Of a DNA stretch of 64,000 bases, positions 21,452 through 27,720 are shown one piece after another. Made by a program: the position numbers and the translations under genes. This DNA is from Acidobacteriota bacterium (GTDB lineage Bacteria; Acidobacteriota; Blastocatellia; UBA7656). The stretch spans positions 1 through 64,000 of the forward strand of contig JBBPIG010000032.1 in the NCBI GenBank assembly GCA_038040445.1, in the 5' to 3' direction. The notes under the pieces are model-generated. The model saw nothing but the letters and a program-made list of their open reading frames with translations. It was not told where the DNA came from and made no database searches. Each line of letters starts with the position of its first letter. Within the stretch, counting starts at the first letter, position 1.

Positions 21452-21869
21452 AGCTCCGGTGCGGATGGAGGCGGGATGGTCTACAAGGTGACTCTTCAGC
21501 CGACGAATAGGAGTAAGTACTTCGAGGCGAGCCATCGGATTCGCCTGCGGTATTCGACTTGAGCTGTCGAGCAGCAACCGCCCGCGCTTCGATCGAAACC
21601 TGAACACGGGCGGAAAGAACTACGACGAATCGAAACGGGTGATAGCGCACAACGCCGTGCATCATTGCAAGCAGTATCACGTCAGAGACTCAAGTTCACG
21701 GTGGTTAAGACGTAGACTGCTACGGCCCTGAATGCATAGCTCGTAGCCGTAGGTTCGATTGCGGTGCAACTACTGAGCTTGATATTGTTGACACTCGGCT
21801 TTGACTGAATCGCAATAGAATCAAGTTTACCCACCCCTCATCAAGAGTACCCGGAGGAGACCTAGCACT
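21452..21869 (+). other. Intergenic remnant region between vapC and the helicase
   Basis: No full gene. A 28-codon frame (21476-21562, ATG after GGAGG) begins [16 protein letters not shown] but is unrecognised. Positions 21672-21720 are gene-tail repeat copy B, reading LKFTVVKT-stop. The last 20 bases hold CGGAGGAGACC, the ribosome site of the helicase gene. It reads like decayed gene ends. Confidence 0.45.
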
Positions 21870-24182
21870 ATGGCATTCACGGTCATCTATACAAAGCCGT
21901 TCAACAGATGTCTTCGGGATCTCCTGAGCCAAGGCCACAAGAAGATTGTGCAAGCTGTCCGAGCGGCGTGCACTGAGGCGGGTATGAACGGCGAAATTCG
22001 GTCGCTGCCCCGCACTAAGCACGGCGAGACGCGGATCTCTAACGTCGAGAAGTACGACCTGTCCGACGGCCATCGCCTGGTCGTTCAGCTCGTCGATGGC
22101 GCGGCCAAGATCCGAGCCTTCCTCTTTTGCGGGTCCCACGATGACACTGATCGGTGGCTGGACTCCCACCGGAACTACCAGTGGGTGAAGAGCAGGACCG
22201 ATGGCACGCTCGAGTTCGTCCAGGTGACCGAAGTCACGGAGGAGCGACATGTCCCGGCGGATCGCATCGACCTCGAGTCGCCGGAGGACCTCTTGGGGCT
22301 CCCACTGCTGCGCTTCTTGTCCCCCGATGAGCGGGAGCGACTGAACCTGCCGCTAGAGGCGCAGCACCTCGCTTGGACCGTCTCTGGAAGCGACTATGAG
22401 CGAGACGCTGAGGGTATCCTGACTCGGCTTGACGAGCTCGCTGGCGCGGAGAAGGCTTGCCTAGTCTTCGACCTACTCTGGCATGCCCACGCTCGCGAGT
22501 GGTCAGAACTCCATCGACGTATCAGCGTCGCGAGCGACGACGCTATAGTGGTTCCCCCATCCGAAGTCGCACCGTCGATGCTCGCTATCGAGAACAGCGA
22601 GTCCTTCATCACCTTCGACGACCCGGACGAGTTCAGCCACTTTTTCGCAGACCACTCGATGGCGGACTGGATGCTGTTCCTGCATCCAGAGCAGAAGAAG
22701 GTGGCAGAGAGGGATTTCCGAGGGCCCGCTCGGCTGCGAGGCGTGTCTGGAAGCGGGAAGACATCGGTCTTGGTTCACCGCGCACGCTATCTCGCCAAGA
22801 AATACAATGAGCCCATTCTCCTCGTGACTCTTGCGGGGAGTATGCGGAAGTTACTCGACCATCTTACGGATGATCTCTGCGGCGTTGAGAGTAGCCTCAT
22901 CCAAACGACAACGATGAGCCGCTTGGCGAGGCAGGTCGTCCAGGAGCTTAATCCACGATATATCACGTGGTTCTCCTTGATTAGTCCTGAACGTCAGGAA
23001 CGTTTGGTCTCTGAGGTAGTCGACCGTGTCCGTGCGCACTCCGACGTGGCTCGAACGCCGTTGCATTCGATGGAGCGGGGTGCACTGTTGGGGTTTTTGC
23101 GCGATGAAATACCGTATGTACGGGGGCGACTATGGAGCACAGAATTCGACCAGTATCTCGACGCGCAGTCATTTCAGCGGCGCGGTAGAGGTCTTCCGCT
23201 CAATGAGACCGCCCGACGTGTCATCCTTGCCGGCATCCGGTTCTACGAGGACCAGCTCGCTGCCGAGGCCTTGTTTGACCACGAGGGCATCGTTGCCGAA
23301 GCCCTGAAAGCGCTCGACGGACCAAGGCGAGACTTCCACAAGGTGCGATGCGTCCTCTGCGATGAAGTCCAGGATCTCTCACAGCTTGAAATGGCACTGA
23401 TCGCCAGTTTGCCGACCACGACGGGTCAAGCGGTCGCCACAGCAGAGAACGGCCTTTTCTTGGCCGGAGATGGTGCGCAGACGATCTACAAGAGAGGCTT
23501 CACCTTTCGTCGCCTCGGCATCGACGTCAAAGGCCGCAGTTTCAGTCTCCGAAAGAACTACCGGAACACACATGAGATCCTGAAGGCCGCTTTCGGTCTC
23601 GTGTCGGAATACGAGTTCGCTGACGTTGATGAAGACGACATCGCTAGGCCATCCGCGCCGGAGCTCGCCAAACGGCACGGATCACGACCCATCATCGTGC
23701 GCTGCTCGTCACTGACCGAGGAGGCATCCGCGATCGCCACAAGGGTTCTATCTCTCATGGCGATGGGACACAAGGCTGGCCAGATCTGCATCGTCGGAGC
23801 GAATAAGAGAACTCGCGAATCAGTGAAGGAAGCGCTTTCGCGTCTAGGTGTGGAGCACACCGATCTACATCAGGATGCCTACTATGAGAGCGACCGAGTC
23901 AAGGTGAGCACGATCGAATCAGCGAAGGGCCACGAGTTCGGAGCCGTCTTTATCATGGGCCTCGTTGAGGGCGTGTTGCCCAAGGCGGATCTCGCCGAAG
24001 GGGAGATCCCACTAGAAGCGGCGCGACTCTATGTGGCGATGACACGGGCGCGTGAGAGCCTAACGATCACGTATAGCCCCTCGGCAGGCTCTCCCGCCTC
24101 TCGTTTTCTGCTGGCGATTCAAGCTGATTGCGATGAGGCGCGCTTCCGCAACGGCCAGGTGGTGCCACTGGAGTCCTCCTGA
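21870..24182 (+). CDS. RelE-like domain fused to a UvrD/SF1 helicase
   Basis: A 770-residue two-part protein. Residues 1-105 resemble a RelE/ParE-fold toxin (FTVIYTKPFNRCL, KYDLSDGHRLVVQL, IRAFLFCGSHDDTDRWLDSH). A linker of about 150 residues follows. From 270 on is an SF1A helicase: Q motif Gln275, Walker A GVSGSGKTS (291-299), Walker B CDEVQD (Asp498, Glu499), motif III GDGAQTIY (533 on), motif IV LRKNYRN, motif VI LYVAMTRARE (720 on). I see no nuclease motif. A GGAGGAG box precedes the ATG. It sits between VapBC and unknown membrane proteins in an island with AbiE and BrnTA, so a defence or stress role is likely but inferred. Confidence 0.82.
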   Translation: MAFTVIYTKPFNRCLRDLLSQGHKKIVQAVRAACTEAGMNGEIRSLPRTKHGETRISNVEKYDLSDGHRLVVQLVDGAAKIRAFLFCGSHDDTDRWLDSHRNYQWVKSRTDGTLEFVQVTEVTEERHVPADRIDLESPEDLLGLPLLRFLSPDERERLNLPLEAQHLAWTVSGSDYERDAEGILTRLDELAGAEKACLVFDLLWHAHAREWSELHRRISVASDDAIVVPPSEVAPSMLAIENSESFITFDDPDEFSHFFADHSMADWMLFLHPEQKKVAERDFRGPARLRGVSGSGKTSVLVHRARYLAKKYNEPILLVTLAGSMRKLLDHLTDDLCGVESSLIQTTTMSRLARQVVQELNPRYITWFSLISPERQERLVSEVVDRVRAHSDVARTPLHSMERGALLGFLRDEIPYVRGRLWSTEFDQYLDAQSFQRRGRGLPLNETARRVILAGIRFYEDQLAAEALFDHEGIVAEALKALDGPRRDFHKVRCVLCDEVQDLSQLEMALIASLPTTTGQAVATAENGLFLAGDGAQTIYKRGFTFRRLGIDVKGRSFSLRKNYRNTHEILKAAFGLVSEYEFADVDEDDIARPSAPELAKRHGSRPIIVRCSSLTEEASAIATRVLSLMAMGHKAGQICIVGANKRTRESVKEALSRLGVEHTDLHQDAYYESDRVKVSTIESAKGHEFGAVFIMGLVEGVLPKADLAEGEIPLEAARLYVAMTRARESLTITYSPSAGSPASRFLLAIQADCDEARFRNGQVVPLESS

Positions 24183-24538
24183 AAGGTTGCAGTGCAGACC
24201 GGTGTGCGACCGCGCCACGCTGAGCTTCACAACAGTCCGATGAAGCTGACAACCCCGATGAGGATCCGTCAGAGCTCAAGATCACAGTGGTGAAGAAGTA
24301 GCCTAAGAAGCATTGTCAAAGCGTGTTGCTCGCGAAGTCGAACTGTTTAGTCGAGGCCCGCCCTCGCTCTCCTGTAGCTCATGGAGCGTCTCGGCCGTAT
24401 GGAAGGAAACGTCAATCTCGTTGAAACCTCTACGATCCCAAACGCGTTGTAAGCGCGCTTGAATGCCCATATAATCGGCCCGCGATTTTGGGTGCAGGGC
24501 TTGATTTAGCGTTTGACAGAAGATGGAGTGAATCAGCT
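24183..24538 (+). repeat. Intergenic region with gene-tail repeat copy C
   Basis: Positions 24260-24306 repeat the tail at 20743-20789 and here read NPDEDPSELKITVVKK-stop, followed by GTAGCCTAAG. No gene is supported in the remaining 230 bases. Partial pairing around GCCTAAG (24301-24307) was tried but no matching downstream box was found. Confidence 0.5.
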
Positions 24539-25075
24539 ATGACCAGGGTTTTATTGGAATTGATTCCTTTTTTTCTAGTCAGCCTCGTTTGGCTCGCCCT
24601 CTGGCGTATTCTATTTCGTCATCTCGCACGGCTTCAAAGCAAACTCTCGTTGAAAATACGCGAAAAAGTTCTGCCTGATATAGACCGTTCAAACACAACA
24701 TTCATCACCTTGTCCTCCGCCGCAGTTGTCTTGACGTTTTCGATACTTCAGATCTGGTCCAATAAGCCGATGATCAAGCAGTATTACTTGGTAGTTTCTT
24801 GGGTTGGGTTCGCGCTGACCCTTCTCACAGGTGCACTTCTAGGCATAGGTCTTTACATTTATCGTACGCACTATCATTGTGTGATAAAAGAAGTTGAGGC
24901 ATCGCTAGACGAAGAAGGCAAGATGAATAAGCAGGATGGCGACAGACTCAAAGGTTCGCTCGCAACGTCCCAGACTATGGAGAGACTGCTCTTTAGCCTT
25001 ATAACCTTACAGCCAATGCTATTCCTGCTTTCAATTGTATACCTGCTTATGTTTGCCATTTGGAACTTACAGTAG
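24539..25075 (+). CDS. Unknown four-helix membrane protein
   Basis: A 178-residue protein from ATG 24539, with GGAG about 10 bases upstream. Four hydrophobic segments are visible: about 5-26, 52-74, 82-108 and 150-175. The loop between helices 1 and 2 is basic (RHLARLQSKLSLKIREKVLP) and that between 3 and 4 is charged (EVEASLDEEGKMNKQDGDRLKG), both probably cytoplasmic. No family recognised. AT-richer than its neighbours by eye. It is directly followed by an attC-like hairpin, which suggests it may be a mobile cassette gene. Confidence 0.65.
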   Translation: MTRVLLELIPFFLVSLVWLALWRILFRHLARLQSKLSLKIREKVLPDIDRSNTTFITLSSAAVVLTFSILQIWSNKPMIKQYYLVVSWVGFALTLLTGALLGIGLYIYRTHYHCVIKEVEASLDEEGKMNKQDGDRLKGSLATSQTMERLLFSLITLQPMLFLLSIVYLLMFAIWNLQ

Positions 25076-25094
25076 TTTTTACGCGGTTGCTACT

Positions 25095-25160
25095 ACGCCT
25101 AAGAACGCACCCATCAGCGGCCTCTCTTCTCTCGCCGTTGAATTACTAACTCTTAGGCGT
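25095..25160 (+). other. Symmetric attC-like hairpin
   Basis: Outer arms ACGCCTAAGA (25095-25104) and TCTTAGGCGT (25151-25160) pair perfectly. Each is separated by 10 unpaired bases from an inner 7-bp stem (25115-25121 with 25134-25140, one G-T wobble) around a 12-base loop. This outer stem/symmetric bubble/inner stem plan is that of folded integron attC sites. It lies 20 bases after one ORF and 15 before the next. The invariant AAC/GTT bases are AAG/CTT here, so recombination by a standard integrase is doubtful. Confidence 0.4.
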
Positions 25161-25174
25161 CAAGGAGAGCAGAA

Positions 25175-25285
25175 GTGCTATATAAGTATCGCGGCTTGTC
25201 CAATATGACGTTTGCGTTGGACATTCTGGTCAACCAACGCATGTTTGCTGCGGAGTTTAAGAGGCTTGGCTTACGACACAACTGA
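25175..25285 (+). pseudogene. N-terminal remnant of a DUF2971-like gene
   Basis: AAGGAG lies 7 bases before GTG 25175. The 36 codons read LYKYRGLSNMTFALDILVNQ then RMFAAEFKRLG before a stop. This resembles the start of DUF2971 proteins, which normally run on for 200 or more residues. The family match is from memory of its opening pattern. The body of the gene is missing, so I read this as a truncated relic. Confidence 0.4.
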
Positions 25286-25360
25286 AGGTGACCGCCGACT
25301 CATACGTGACGGTCAATTTCATTGACTTGGAGAACTACAGTTGCCGCGCGCAATTCTCGT

Positions 25361-26017
25361 ATGACCCTCCTCCTCCTATTTGCCGGCGTACTCCTTGGCG
25401 GTATGGTGAGCATTGTTGTCGCAATGGTTATCTCATACTGGCAATTCATATCATCGACAGCAGGCTATCGAGTAGCTCAAGCGGTTGAGGCTACTCAAAA
25501 ACTTGCCCTAAACCGCGAAAAACATATCGACAGCGTCAGTACCCTGAGGAATCAGTACCGATACTCGCTAGGGGTCATCGTTGACGAGTTTGTTCAGGGC
25601 TTCGGAGTCAATGGTGATTTTAAGCGTAATGGCCCGTGGCCCTCTTTGATCTGCCCACATAGTGACCGCTGGAAGAAATTCCGCGAGCAAGTTCGCCCTG
25701 TGATTGAGGACATCAACGTTTATTCCTTTCTTGGAGAAAGGCCCCTTCCCTTTGCCTATTCTCCAGTCGCCCAGTTATGCGCTCTAACAAAGCTCTGCAA
25801 TCAAGTGGAAACGGTTGTCGGCCTTCTTGATGGAGCGCTTGAGAAAAAACTTATCAGAATTAACTGCACGAAGAACGAGGTGACAAACGTTGAAGTAGAT
25901 ATTCTCGATGCAGAAAGACAGGAAAAGAAGAGGTACCAAGAAACCCTAACAGAGGCCTACCGTGAACTTCAGCGTCGCTGGGACAAATGGCTGCGAACAG
26001 CACAACGAACACATTAG
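25361..26017 (+). CDS. Unknown single-pass membrane-anchored protein
   Basis: About 218 residues from ATG 25361; a TTG at 25322 would add 13. One long N-terminal hydrophobic segment (about 2-28, LLLLFAGVLLGGMVSIVVAMVI) is followed by a soluble, mostly helical region. The end is strongly charged (LDAERQEKKRYQETLTEAYRELQRR), likely a coiled coil. Four Cys are spread through it. No family recognised. It may work with the four-helix protein upstream, but only order and strand suggest it. No good ribosome site is visible. Confidence 0.6.
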   Translation: MTLLLLFAGVLLGGMVSIVVAMVISYWQFISSTAGYRVAQAVEATQKLALNREKHIDSVSTLRNQYRYSLGVIVDEFVQGFGVNGDFKRNGPWPSLICPHSDRWKKFREQVRPVIEDINVYSFLGERPLPFAYSPVAQLCALTKLCNQVETVVGLLDGALEKKLIRINCTKNEVTNVEVDILDAERQEKKRYQETLTEAYRELQRRWDKWLRTAQRTH

Positions 26018-26176: not shown

Positions 26177-27112
26177 TCACACCTTCTTGCGGGATGACTG
26201 CCACGGACCGCCCGGCTTCCAGATCGCTTCGAGCTCCTTGTTCTCCGCAGCAGCGGCCAGCACCGGCGCCAGGAACTCTCGCAGTCTTGGAATCACAACA
26301 TCGAGTGTGTCCGTCTCGCGTGAAAGGCGACCCTTGCGCACAAACGCTTTCCATTGCGCCTGACGTCCTGGTTGATCTATGAACTCTTCGCTCAGAGCTA
26401 TAGGCGTCTCTTTGGGAATCTCAGTACGCCGCCGGCGAAATGTCTCTTTGACGGCGCGGGTAAGCACAGTGCCATCGAACTCAAACATGAGAGCCAATTC
26501 ACGGATGTCGAAGAAATCCTTGATGCGGCTGTTGATCGCACCAAGGCTCAGCATCGCTTCCAGTTTCTCAGCCACGACAGTCTCGCGGGAATATGTCAGG
26601 ATCTCCGGCGCCGGGAAAGCCAGCAGTGTAGGATAGACATGAATCGCGGGTGCAGGTGTTACCACATCGCCAAATCCGATGTCCACCTGAACCGGAATCC
26701 GAGCGCGTGCCAGGCGCGCAATCATTTTGAGGCGAACGCCCTGATACTCCTCGGCAGCTCGAATCTCTTCACCTCGAATCGAAGCTGGATCGAAGATCAG
26801 ACCATCGTCCTCGACCGGCGTCTCGCAAATCTCGCGGAAGGTCTGGCCAAGCTTCTCAACCGAGTCCTCTCCCTTGCTGAGCAAGTCCAAATCCCACGTT
26901 GCTCGATGAGGATGGGCTGCCCAAAGGTTGAAAAGCTTTGCTCCCTTCAGCACGAACCGCTCACTGTGCTTTGAACGACTGATGCGGTAGAGCAATCTCT
27001 CGATCGCGTACTCGCTCAGAATGAATTGAAACTCTTCCCCCCGCTGCTGAGAGAGATTTACCAGCCTTTGCCTGACTGACGCAGCGAGGTTCTTTGGTTT
27101 GGCGGGACTCAT
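26177..27112 (-). CDS. abiEii: AbiEii/AbiGii nucleotidyltransferase toxin
   Basis: A 311-residue toxin of the type IV AbiE system. The nucleotidyltransferase core is visible: VLKGAKLFNLWAAHPHRATWDLDLLSKG (glycine motif and DxD), IPVQVDIGFGDVV (third acidic motif) and EKLEAMLSLGAINSRIKDFFDIREL, the conserved AbiEii Lys/Asp block. Family members transfer nucleotides to targets such as tRNA and cause abortive phage infection or dormancy. Its start overlaps the antitoxin stop by 4 bases (ATGA type). Confidence 0.93.
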   Translation of the reverse strand: MSPAKPKNLAASVRQRLVNLSQQRGEEFQFILSEYAIERLLYRISRSKHSERFVLKGAKLFNLWAAHPHRATWDLDLLSKGEDSVEKLGQTFREICETPVEDDGLIFDPASIRGEEIRAAEEYQGVRLKMIARLARARIPVQVDIGFGDVVTPAPAIHVYPTLLAFPAPEILTYSRETVVAEKLEAMLSLGAINSRIKDFFDIRELALMFEFDGTVLTRAVKETFRRRRTEIPKETPIALSEEFIDQPGRQAQWKAFVRKGRLSRETDTLDVVIPRLREFLAPVLAAAAENKELEAIWKPGGPWQSSRKKV

Positions 27113-27720
27113 CCGAGAGACTCCAGATATGGCTGCATCACTCGCGTCACGCGGGCAAGCTTCGCGTAGCGCAACAGTTCATCCATGCCTGAGCGATATT
27201 TCCGCCGGTAGTCGCGCAGTGCTTCCAGCGCTACATCGGTGCCTATCTTGTTTCGGAACTTGAAACAGTCGGCGACGCTCTTGGCTGCGCTGTAGACGCG
27301 CACATTGATACCTTCGATGCGATGAGCCTCGATCCCACTGCTGAATGCTTTGCCCGACAGATGGATGATTCGCAGCGGTGGATAGGACACGGCGGGTCGC
27401 CGGGCTTTTTGGTCAATCGCAATCCAGACTTCAAACGGGTTCTGGGTCGTGAGCCCGTGGAACCGAAGCGCCGACAGAAGACAGATAACGCCGTGCGGAA
27501 CGCGTTTGCCGGCCTGCGCGAGGTTGTGTTTCTCTCCCAGGTCCGCGTCTGCAAGGGCGTAGAGTCCGCGACCTATGCGCTGAAGCTGTCCGGCGTCTAC
27601 GAGGCGCTTCAGATACACACGCGGGATTCCGTGACTCTCAAGCTCGTGGGACCGAAGGACGCCCGCCTTGCGAACCAGGTCGAGGAGTTTCTTTGTTTGA
27701 GGCTGCGCGCTCATGTTCAA
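27109..27720 (-). CDS. abiEi: AbiEi-family antitoxin/transcriptional regulator
   Basis: A 203-residue protein. The N-terminal winged helix (KKLLDLVRKAGVLRSHELESHGIPRVYLKRLVDAGQLQRIGRGLY) is the AbiEi_4 domain, and the rest is the AbiEi C-terminal antitoxin domain (HGVICLLSALRFHGLTTQ, EGINVRVYSAAKSVADCFKFR). It represses its own promoter and counteracts AbiEii without direct binding in characterised systems. It is first in a two-gene operon with a 4-base overlap. Confidence 0.93.
   Translation of the reverse strand: MNMSAQPQTKKLLDLVRKAGVLRSHELESHGIPRVYLKRLVDAGQLQRIGRGLYALADADLGEKHNLAQAGKRVPHGVICLLSALRFHGLTTQNPFEVWIAIDQKARRPAVSYPPLRIIHLSGKAFSSGIEAHRIEGINVRVYSAAKSVADCFKFRNKIGTDVALEALRDYRRKYRSGMDELLRYAKLARVTRVMQPYLESLG

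Follow-up and report, generated by a model that had tools for sequence, protein, structure and literature searches.

Which function should be ascribed to a protein that joins a toxin-type domain to a helicase motor and is encoded with no recognizable antitoxin gene beside it? The question is raised by a gene in a 64,000-nt stretch of DNA from an Acidobacteriota bacterium (GenBank assembly GCA_038040445.1, contig JBBPIG010000032.1, positions 1 to 64,000 of the forward strand), here called the window. A first-pass annotation made from the letters had described the gene as a RelE-like toxin domain fused to a UvrD/SF1 helicase and suggested a defense factor; this reading is correct in its main points, and the gene is real and unusual. 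The two-part architecture is already known. It has been described as ArmD, a RelE-like domain on a UvrD/GajB-like helicase that is essential for ARMADA Type II anti-phage defense (PMC12458937, a preprint; this and all other papers given by PMC number are cited from the part of their text that was available), and it recurs in a wider RelE-SF1 family. What is different here is that the clade of the window gene, which we call the solo clade, stands alone.

Gene structure and composition

The gene is an uninterrupted plus-strand ORF of 770 amino acids, as read from the window sequence; its features are collected in Table 1. The first-pass annotation had seen deviant codon use as a hint of transfer. 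This does not hold, and we rejected the argument for lateral transfer from codon use: the codon-use distance of the gene is 0.260 against a mean of 0.253 (sd 0.038) for 24 window genes of more than 280 codons, and its GC3 of 0.697 falls within the range of all 25 compared genes (0.597-0.730). The methyltransferase on the left flank also occurs in genomes G002 and G007 (three of eight genomes, including its own), and no empty site was demonstrable at the locus: the 19-kb stretches around the methyltransferase contained no match to any further window ORF.

Table 1. Features of the window gene and its surroundings (window coordinates).
Feature	Position	Strand	Basis
Shine-Dalgarno-like GGAGGAG	21853..21859	+	read directly; ends 10 bases before ATG
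RelE-SF1 helicase gene, 770 aa, solo clade	21870..24182	+	ORF; full-length homologues
RelE/YafQ/YoeB-fold domain (predicted), residues 1-102	21870..22175	+	AF2 model and PDB comparison
E53, candidate general base	22026..22028	+	invariant in 11/11; role by analogy to YoeB Glu46 (PMC3814384, available part)
R69, candidate transition-state arginine	22074..22076	+	invariant in 11/11 solo proteins and 10 ArmD/RelE-SF1 rows of alignment A6
H90, candidate general acid, end of beta4	22137..22139	+	invariant in 11/11 solo proteins and 10 rows of alignment A6
Linker, partly helical in model, residues 108-260	22191..22649	+	least conserved part
SF1 (Rep/UvrD-type) motor core, apparently without 2B, residues 261-770	22650..24179	+	Pfam; Rep 1uaa_B; motif spacing
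Walker A GVSGSGKT, residues 291-298	22740..22763	+	sequence
Walker B region with DEVQD, residues 495-502	23352..23375	+	sequence
Motif VI RLYVAMTRA, residues 719-727	24024..24050	+	sequence
AbiEi/AbiEii pair, context only	26177..27720	-	Pfam and PADLOC

Domain architecture of the window protein

An AF2 model of the N-terminal region, built from ten homologues (pLDDT 81.5), has the strand and helix order of the RelE type. VIA matched it to YafQ with Z 10.6 (rmsd 2.3 over 89 residues), to YoeB with Z up to 9.9, to ribosome-bound RelE with 9.2 and to ParE2 with 8.4; the matches are confined to model residues 1-102, and RelE-superfamily proteins make up almost the whole list of 50 rows. Foldseek also placed RelE-superfamily toxins at the top, with E-values of 5.4e-3 or worse, and by itself returned nothing below 0.001. 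Residues 1-107 have no Pfam or PADLOC profile match, and a PDB sequence-profile search with the solo N-terminal alignment gave no match; when run with the ArmD/RelE-SF1 alignment, it returned YoeB (E 0.019) and RelK (0.077) among weak matches. One of four ArmD/RelE-SF1 members scanned, L045, passes the Pfam cut-off for HigB-like_toxin (PF05015; 27.7 vs. 27 bits). Profile-profile comparison links the N-terminal alignment of the solo clade to the ArmD/RelE-SF1 N-terminus (probability 94.9; E 4.8e-8, calculated for this single pair), and the match to ArmD-type N-termini is collinear across the RelE domain and linker (residues 1-188). The structure comparison, which the first-pass annotation had named as a check, thus agrees with an independent sequence route (the profile-profile and HigB-like_toxin matches), and we assign a predicted RelE fold to the N-terminus, where a RelE/ParE fold had been proposed.

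Across the 11 homologues, 35 of 107 N-terminal positions are invariant, which is above chance; those identical in all 11 include R48, E53, R55, E60, K61, R69, R82, H90 and H100. Glu, Arg and His are each represented among the invariant residues of the solo RelE domain. Pattern matching recovers the Arg and the His in 21 of 23 members; in the remaining two (L009 and L046) they were recognized by eye. YoeB catalysis employs a Glu as base together with Arg and His (PMC3814384), and a Glu/Arg/His triad has been proposed for H. pylori relatives of YafQ (PMC7584586). By this analogy E53 (or E60), R69 and H90 may form the catalytic set of the window protein.

The remainder of the protein matches UvrD_C (82.9 bits) and UvrD-helicase (55.6 bits) in Pfam, which lists no nuclease domain. 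Motifs I, II, III, IV, V and VI are located at residues 291, 495, 533, 560, 681 and 719, and the ATPase set is complete. Intact motifs and a lack of nuclease had both been noted at first pass, along with a full SF1A helicase; a Rep/UvrD-type motor is indeed present, but "full" has to be qualified, as the 2B subdomain appears to be missing. This is judged from the spacing of motifs IV and V (121 residues vs. 275 in the genome's own PcrA/UvrD-like protein) and from the UvrD_C match, which is split in two with its middle absent. The motor in the full-length model matches Rep (1uaa_B) with Z 22.2 and UvrD with Z 21.6 (rmsd 8.4 over about 411 residues); at pLDDT 75.2 and pTM 0.45, the arrangement of the RelE domain and motor is not readable from this model.

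Members, phylogeny and distribution of the solo clade

Full-length two-part relatives are encoded on one IMG/VR contig (68%), in Vibrio phages (41%) and in eight bacterial genomes, which we take from their names to be Acidobacteriota, Pseudomonadota and Bacteroidota. With the window protein included, the solo clade has 11 distinct full-length members; L023, apparently a near copy of the Vibrio phage member L022, is left out of all counts. A genome scan with the single window protein gave 17 pattern matches and zero relatives, and an alignment-based scan found 8 loci among 139 pattern matches; these scans use short exact patterns, and their counts are lower bounds. The viral scans returned one and the same IMG/VR contig each time.

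In the tree, the solo clade (support 100/99) is separate from ArmD and other RelE-SF1 proteins (98/98) and from NERD-UvrD, with the ArmD clade (100/98) nested inside the other RelE-SF1 clade (98/98). Of the four rows treated as ArmD, L044 and L046 were so assigned from their upstream genes; the longer RelE-SF1 variants (886 and 856 aa) are not among the rows of the tree. The best motor tree joins the solo clade with NERD at 75/38, on long branches. When all RelE-bearing SF1 motors were held monophyletic, p-AU was 0.25, again for motor sequence with long branches.

The solo clade is rare and patchily distributed. Searches with the solo N-terminal profile (E≤1e-5) matched 2 of 396 genomes in the window's phylum (its own and that of a truncated relative, L035). 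For V. harveyi, its class gave 4 matching genomes among 369 and its family 1 among 296; the order to which the Alcanivorax genome belongs gave 3 among 293, and that of the Bryobacteraceae genome 2 among 200. Beyond the search centers, no further 770-790-aa copy was found at this threshold in the 396, 369, 296, 293 and 200 genomes; the remaining matches are helicase-less or unclear, longer variants (L063 and L064; 886 and 856 aa) or damaged copies (L035 and L066). L035 (genome G260) has seemingly lost the central portion of its motor, and the matches at L066 (G1620) contain internal stops and lie near a RES-like ORF recognized by eye.

In the solo clade, conservation is higher in the toxin-type domain than in the motor to which it is fused, with mean pairwise identities of 62.5% for RelE, 38.7% for the linker and 52.2% and 48.9% for the two motor halves. 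Among ten ArmD/RelE-SF1 proteins (L009 and L043 were left out of this comparison and of alignment A6) the order of RelE and motor is the opposite, with 33.2% for RelE, 28.5% for the linker and 39.2% and 35.9% for the motor halves; the latter set is more diverse overall, so that only the ranking inside a set should be compared. Such a reversal hints at a fixed target or active site for RelE in the solo clade. We give no dN/dS, because synonymous sites in this clade are saturated.

Relationship to ArmD and other known systems

In the available text of the ARMADA preprint, deletion of ArmD or mutation of its Walker A motif abolishes defense, a Walker B mutation weakens it, and ARMADA Type II defense is reported as non-abortive (PMC12458937). 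Two E. coli plasmid proteins found with the window protein have K266 and D454, the positions mutated in that work; both genes lie downstream of a gene for a large DEAD/DEAH helicase, which in one of the two is itself preceded by a methyltransferase gene. The window protein resembles ArmD in its N-terminal RelE-like domain on a UvrD/GajB-like helicase, in the collinearity of the RelE domain and linker, and in its anti-phage context. However, ArmD is encoded by the last of the four genes that make up its system, whereas ArmA, ArmB and ArmC are absent among the window neighbors read and scanned. The window helicase also branches outside the ArmD clade, and segments near R48-R55 and E60-L64 show a conservation peculiar to the solo RelE domain. 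Unnamed RelE-SF1 helicases of about 690 aa (L010, L012, L013, L014, L016, L018 and L045) have the same domain order, the Arg and the His, but a different RelE subtype, and they share a clade with ArmD that is separate from the solo clade. We found no literature on a solitary RelE-helicase. We encountered the fusion nowhere but as ArmD, in the available text of PMC12458937; it was not seen in the available parts of PMC5512222, PMC1978522, PMC3710099, PMC7251935, PMC7584586 and PMC3814384; the main text of PMC11980606, as far as available, is without the word helicase, and many multidomain proteins without identifiable antitoxin were excluded there.

The ribosome-dependent RNase toxins YafQ, YoeB and RelE have the fold predicted for residues 1-102, where Glu, Arg and His of fitting kinds are invariant, but the window protein is fused to a motor and no antitoxin gene was found for it. 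Cami1 (CARF-RelE; Z 7.9 for 8phj) is similar in having a RelE-fold effector in cis with a regulatory module; its sensor, the CARF domain, binds cyclic oligonucleotides, whereas the window protein has a helicase instead. GajB of Gabija is likewise an SF1 helicase in defense, with profile matches to the window protein of up to 8.1e-26 and a Z of 13.6 between the window motor and chain B of the Gabija structure 8sm3. GajB pairs with GajA, which was not detected among the seven window neighbors scanned singly against PADLOC, and to our knowledge it has no RelE domain. The best PADLOC profile for the window protein is NERD-UvrD (C3a187; 3.9e-32), which has a NERD domain where the window protein has RelE.

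Genomic neighborhood and phage carriage

A PIN toxin gene and a DUF2281 gene lie upstream of the window gene, and AbiEi/AbiEii and BrnT/BrnA lie downstream, in agreement with the VapBC, AbiE and BrnTA neighbors named by the first-pass annotation. Its statement that no antitoxin is adjacent was also borne out, with none recognizable among 1,680 ORFs (≥30 aa) near the 11 loci. Comparison of these ORFs for a common neighbor or antitoxin, which a short, very divergent antitoxin could escape, yielded no more than three weak pairings (E≤1e-4), including one with an ABC ATPase. The lack of a convincing neighbor common to the 11 loci speaks against a constant partner or antitoxin gene. The window gene is followed on the same strand by two ORFs (window 24488-26017, plus strand) that by eye look like membrane-protein genes; the first has a weak 8xMP match (24.3 bits vs. 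a cut-off of 30), and neither has a counterpart at the other loci.

A defense-neighborhood bias of the solo clade has moderate support. Strong defense genes, counted as PADLOC matches at E≤1e-40 within 5 kb, occur at 6 or more of 10 solo loci and in 0 of 10 control stretches (Fisher one-sided, p = 0.005), in a small sample and with a cutoff that was picked after the matches had been seen; the enrichment is for this reason support and not proof. At the looser E≤1e-10 the contrast (6 of 10 loci vs. at most 3 of 10 controls) is not significant (p = 0.18), and the best PADLOC E-value among the control stretches is 3.3e-36. The defense factor suggested at first pass gains a moderate neighbor bias at the stricter cutoff and none that is significant at the looser one. 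The controls were 10 stretches of 12 kb from five genomes, none of them G500, G501, G503 or a phage; 81 ORFs were examined at the loci and 103 in the controls, after ORFs of <110 aa had been dropped. Six of 10 is a minimum, as loci are assigned by single scans and some of the 81 ORFs are without one, and the family table behind the count lists 25 of 201 families. L027, on a 3.4-kb contig, is out of this count but in the common-neighbor test.

The defense neighbors are AbiEi/AbiEii at the window locus, a methyltransferase at L026 (with an LmuB-like ATPase at 1.9e-18), a C5 methyltransferase at L029 (with an AAA_15 ATPase), an adjoining NERD-UvrD gene at L031 and Shedu SduA in the Vibrio phage L022; at L025 the solo gene comes just after Hachiman HamA/HamB and a TIR gene. 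No strong defense neighbor was seen within 5 kb at L024, L028, L030 and L032, of which L030 has only an LmuA-like similarity (1.4e-7) and L032 is the viral contig.

The Vibrio phage homologue (41%) is present in two apparently near-identical records, PQ189353.1 and PQ189371.1, which include integrase genes; it sits between lysis and replication genes, antisense to the surrounding phage genes. Its annotated start is too short by about 34 RelE residues, with homology placing the start at L022:19992, and the record's own note for it reads Gabija GajB_3. The IMG/VR copy is also antisense and lies near tape-measure and tail-spike-like genes, with a PHROG match in two of five neighbors scanned.

Proposed function and alternatives

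A role of the window gene in defense is likely. We lean, by a little, toward an antiviral factor that acts alone from a single gene, belongs to the ArmD-like RelE-SF1 helicases and has a motor that would gate a RelE-type RNase. What is observed beneath this proposal is the domain layout, the ATPase motifs, a motif spacing too short for 2B, the lack of a detectable common partner or antitoxin gene, the phage carriage, the defense neighbors and the RelE conservation. The SF1 motor would load on, and move along, foreign or replicating nucleic acid, more probably DNA than RNA because Rep and UvrD are the nearest folds. An ATP-driven rearrangement could then free or position the N-terminal RelE domain, which by analogy to YoeB and YafQ would cut RNA in infected cells, using E53 or E60, R69 and H90; until then the protein's own motor, and not an antitoxin, would keep it inactive in cis. 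Several points weigh against such a gated RNase. ArmD acts together with three partners that were not found at the window locus, RNase action is a poor fit to the non-abortive mode reported in the available text of PMC12458937, the RelE conservation is also compatible with a binding module, and at 4 of 10 loci no strong defense neighbor was seen within 5 kb. We offer a wider joint reading as tentative: an antitoxin-free, one-protein immunity in which a motor without 2B silences a RelE RNase in cis until invading nucleic acid is met, with RelE constrained more than the motor by a universal target that it reads or cuts (e.g., the decoding center), and with the RelE variant as a portable effector that is reused before an Mza operon and, helicase-less, beside coiled-coil-like proteins.

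The main rival keeps the defense role but makes the RelE fold a non-cutting adaptor, docking the motor on ribosomes, mRNA, gyrase-bound DNA or a phage replication intermediate, with the helicase as the acting part. Strong conservation of RelE is expected when it binds an invariant partner, ARMADA Type II is non-killing and needs the ArmD Walker A motif (PMC12458937, available text), and ParE toxins have the fold without the catalytic residues (PMC11980606, available text). Yet the RNase-type Arg and His persist in both the solo clade and the ArmD group, further acidic and basic residues are invariant in the solo clade, and RNase toxins score higher than ParE in VIA (YafQ 10.6 vs. 8.4), although fold rank is no proof of function; on this evidence we consider an adaptor rather unlikely. 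The available text of the ARMADA preprint (PMC12458937) has mutations of the ArmD ATPase motifs only, in a system needing four genes. The phage-carried solitary relative consists of one gene and lends itself to direct tests of what a RelE fold does on a helicase.

That two distinct members are phage cargo, antisense to nearby phage genes, would also suit a selfish or phage-serving gene acting in superinfection exclusion or element replication, with the chromosomal copies as relics, as would the very patchy distribution, with no extra 770-790-aa copy in the five profile searches. We regard this as improbable: several chromosomal copies adjoin defense genes with no phage gene recognized nearby, and superinfection exclusion is itself a defense. 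An ordinary accessory DNA-repair helicase carrying a degenerate toxin domain would account for the Rep/UvrD matches and complete ATPase motifs, but not for a toxin-like domain that is the best conserved part and not degenerate, for the apparent loss of the 2B found in Rep and UvrD, or for a sporadic distribution unlike that of a housekeeping gene, and we give it very little credence.

Other occurrences of RelE-SF1 genes and RelE variants

Related genes occur in other settings. On a Gemmobacter plasmid, the RelE-SF1 gene L045:5515-7614 comes after restriction-endonuclease and methyltransferase genes and is another multi-gene defense setting for the architecture. An 886-aa RelE-SF1 variant (L068:6820-9480, minus strand, contig 16 of G1310) lies directly before MzaB, MzaC and MzaD on the same strand (PADLOC E-values of 1.2e-130, 8e-237 and 1.2e-29), followed by MzaE (1.6e-104); the MzaA profile has no match there, and we rejected the idea that this gene is MzaA. 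L069 has a similar RelE-SF1 ORF of 856 aa. Helicase-less copies of this RelE variant are found on the Thiothrix winogradskyi plasmid NZ_CP091245 (9299-11383), at L070:7135-9231 and at L071:6547-8495, adjoining coiled-coil-like proteins (by eye), as runs of three genes in Thiothrix and L070 and of two in L071; we know of no name for this gene set. In the region L028:9422-14210 the solo gene of Gallionella stands between exbD-like and lpxK-like genes, and in the region L070:899-9231 the helicase-less cassette is a few kb from exbB/exbD/lpxK-like genes (both by eye); the two loci possibly represent a common insertion hotspot.
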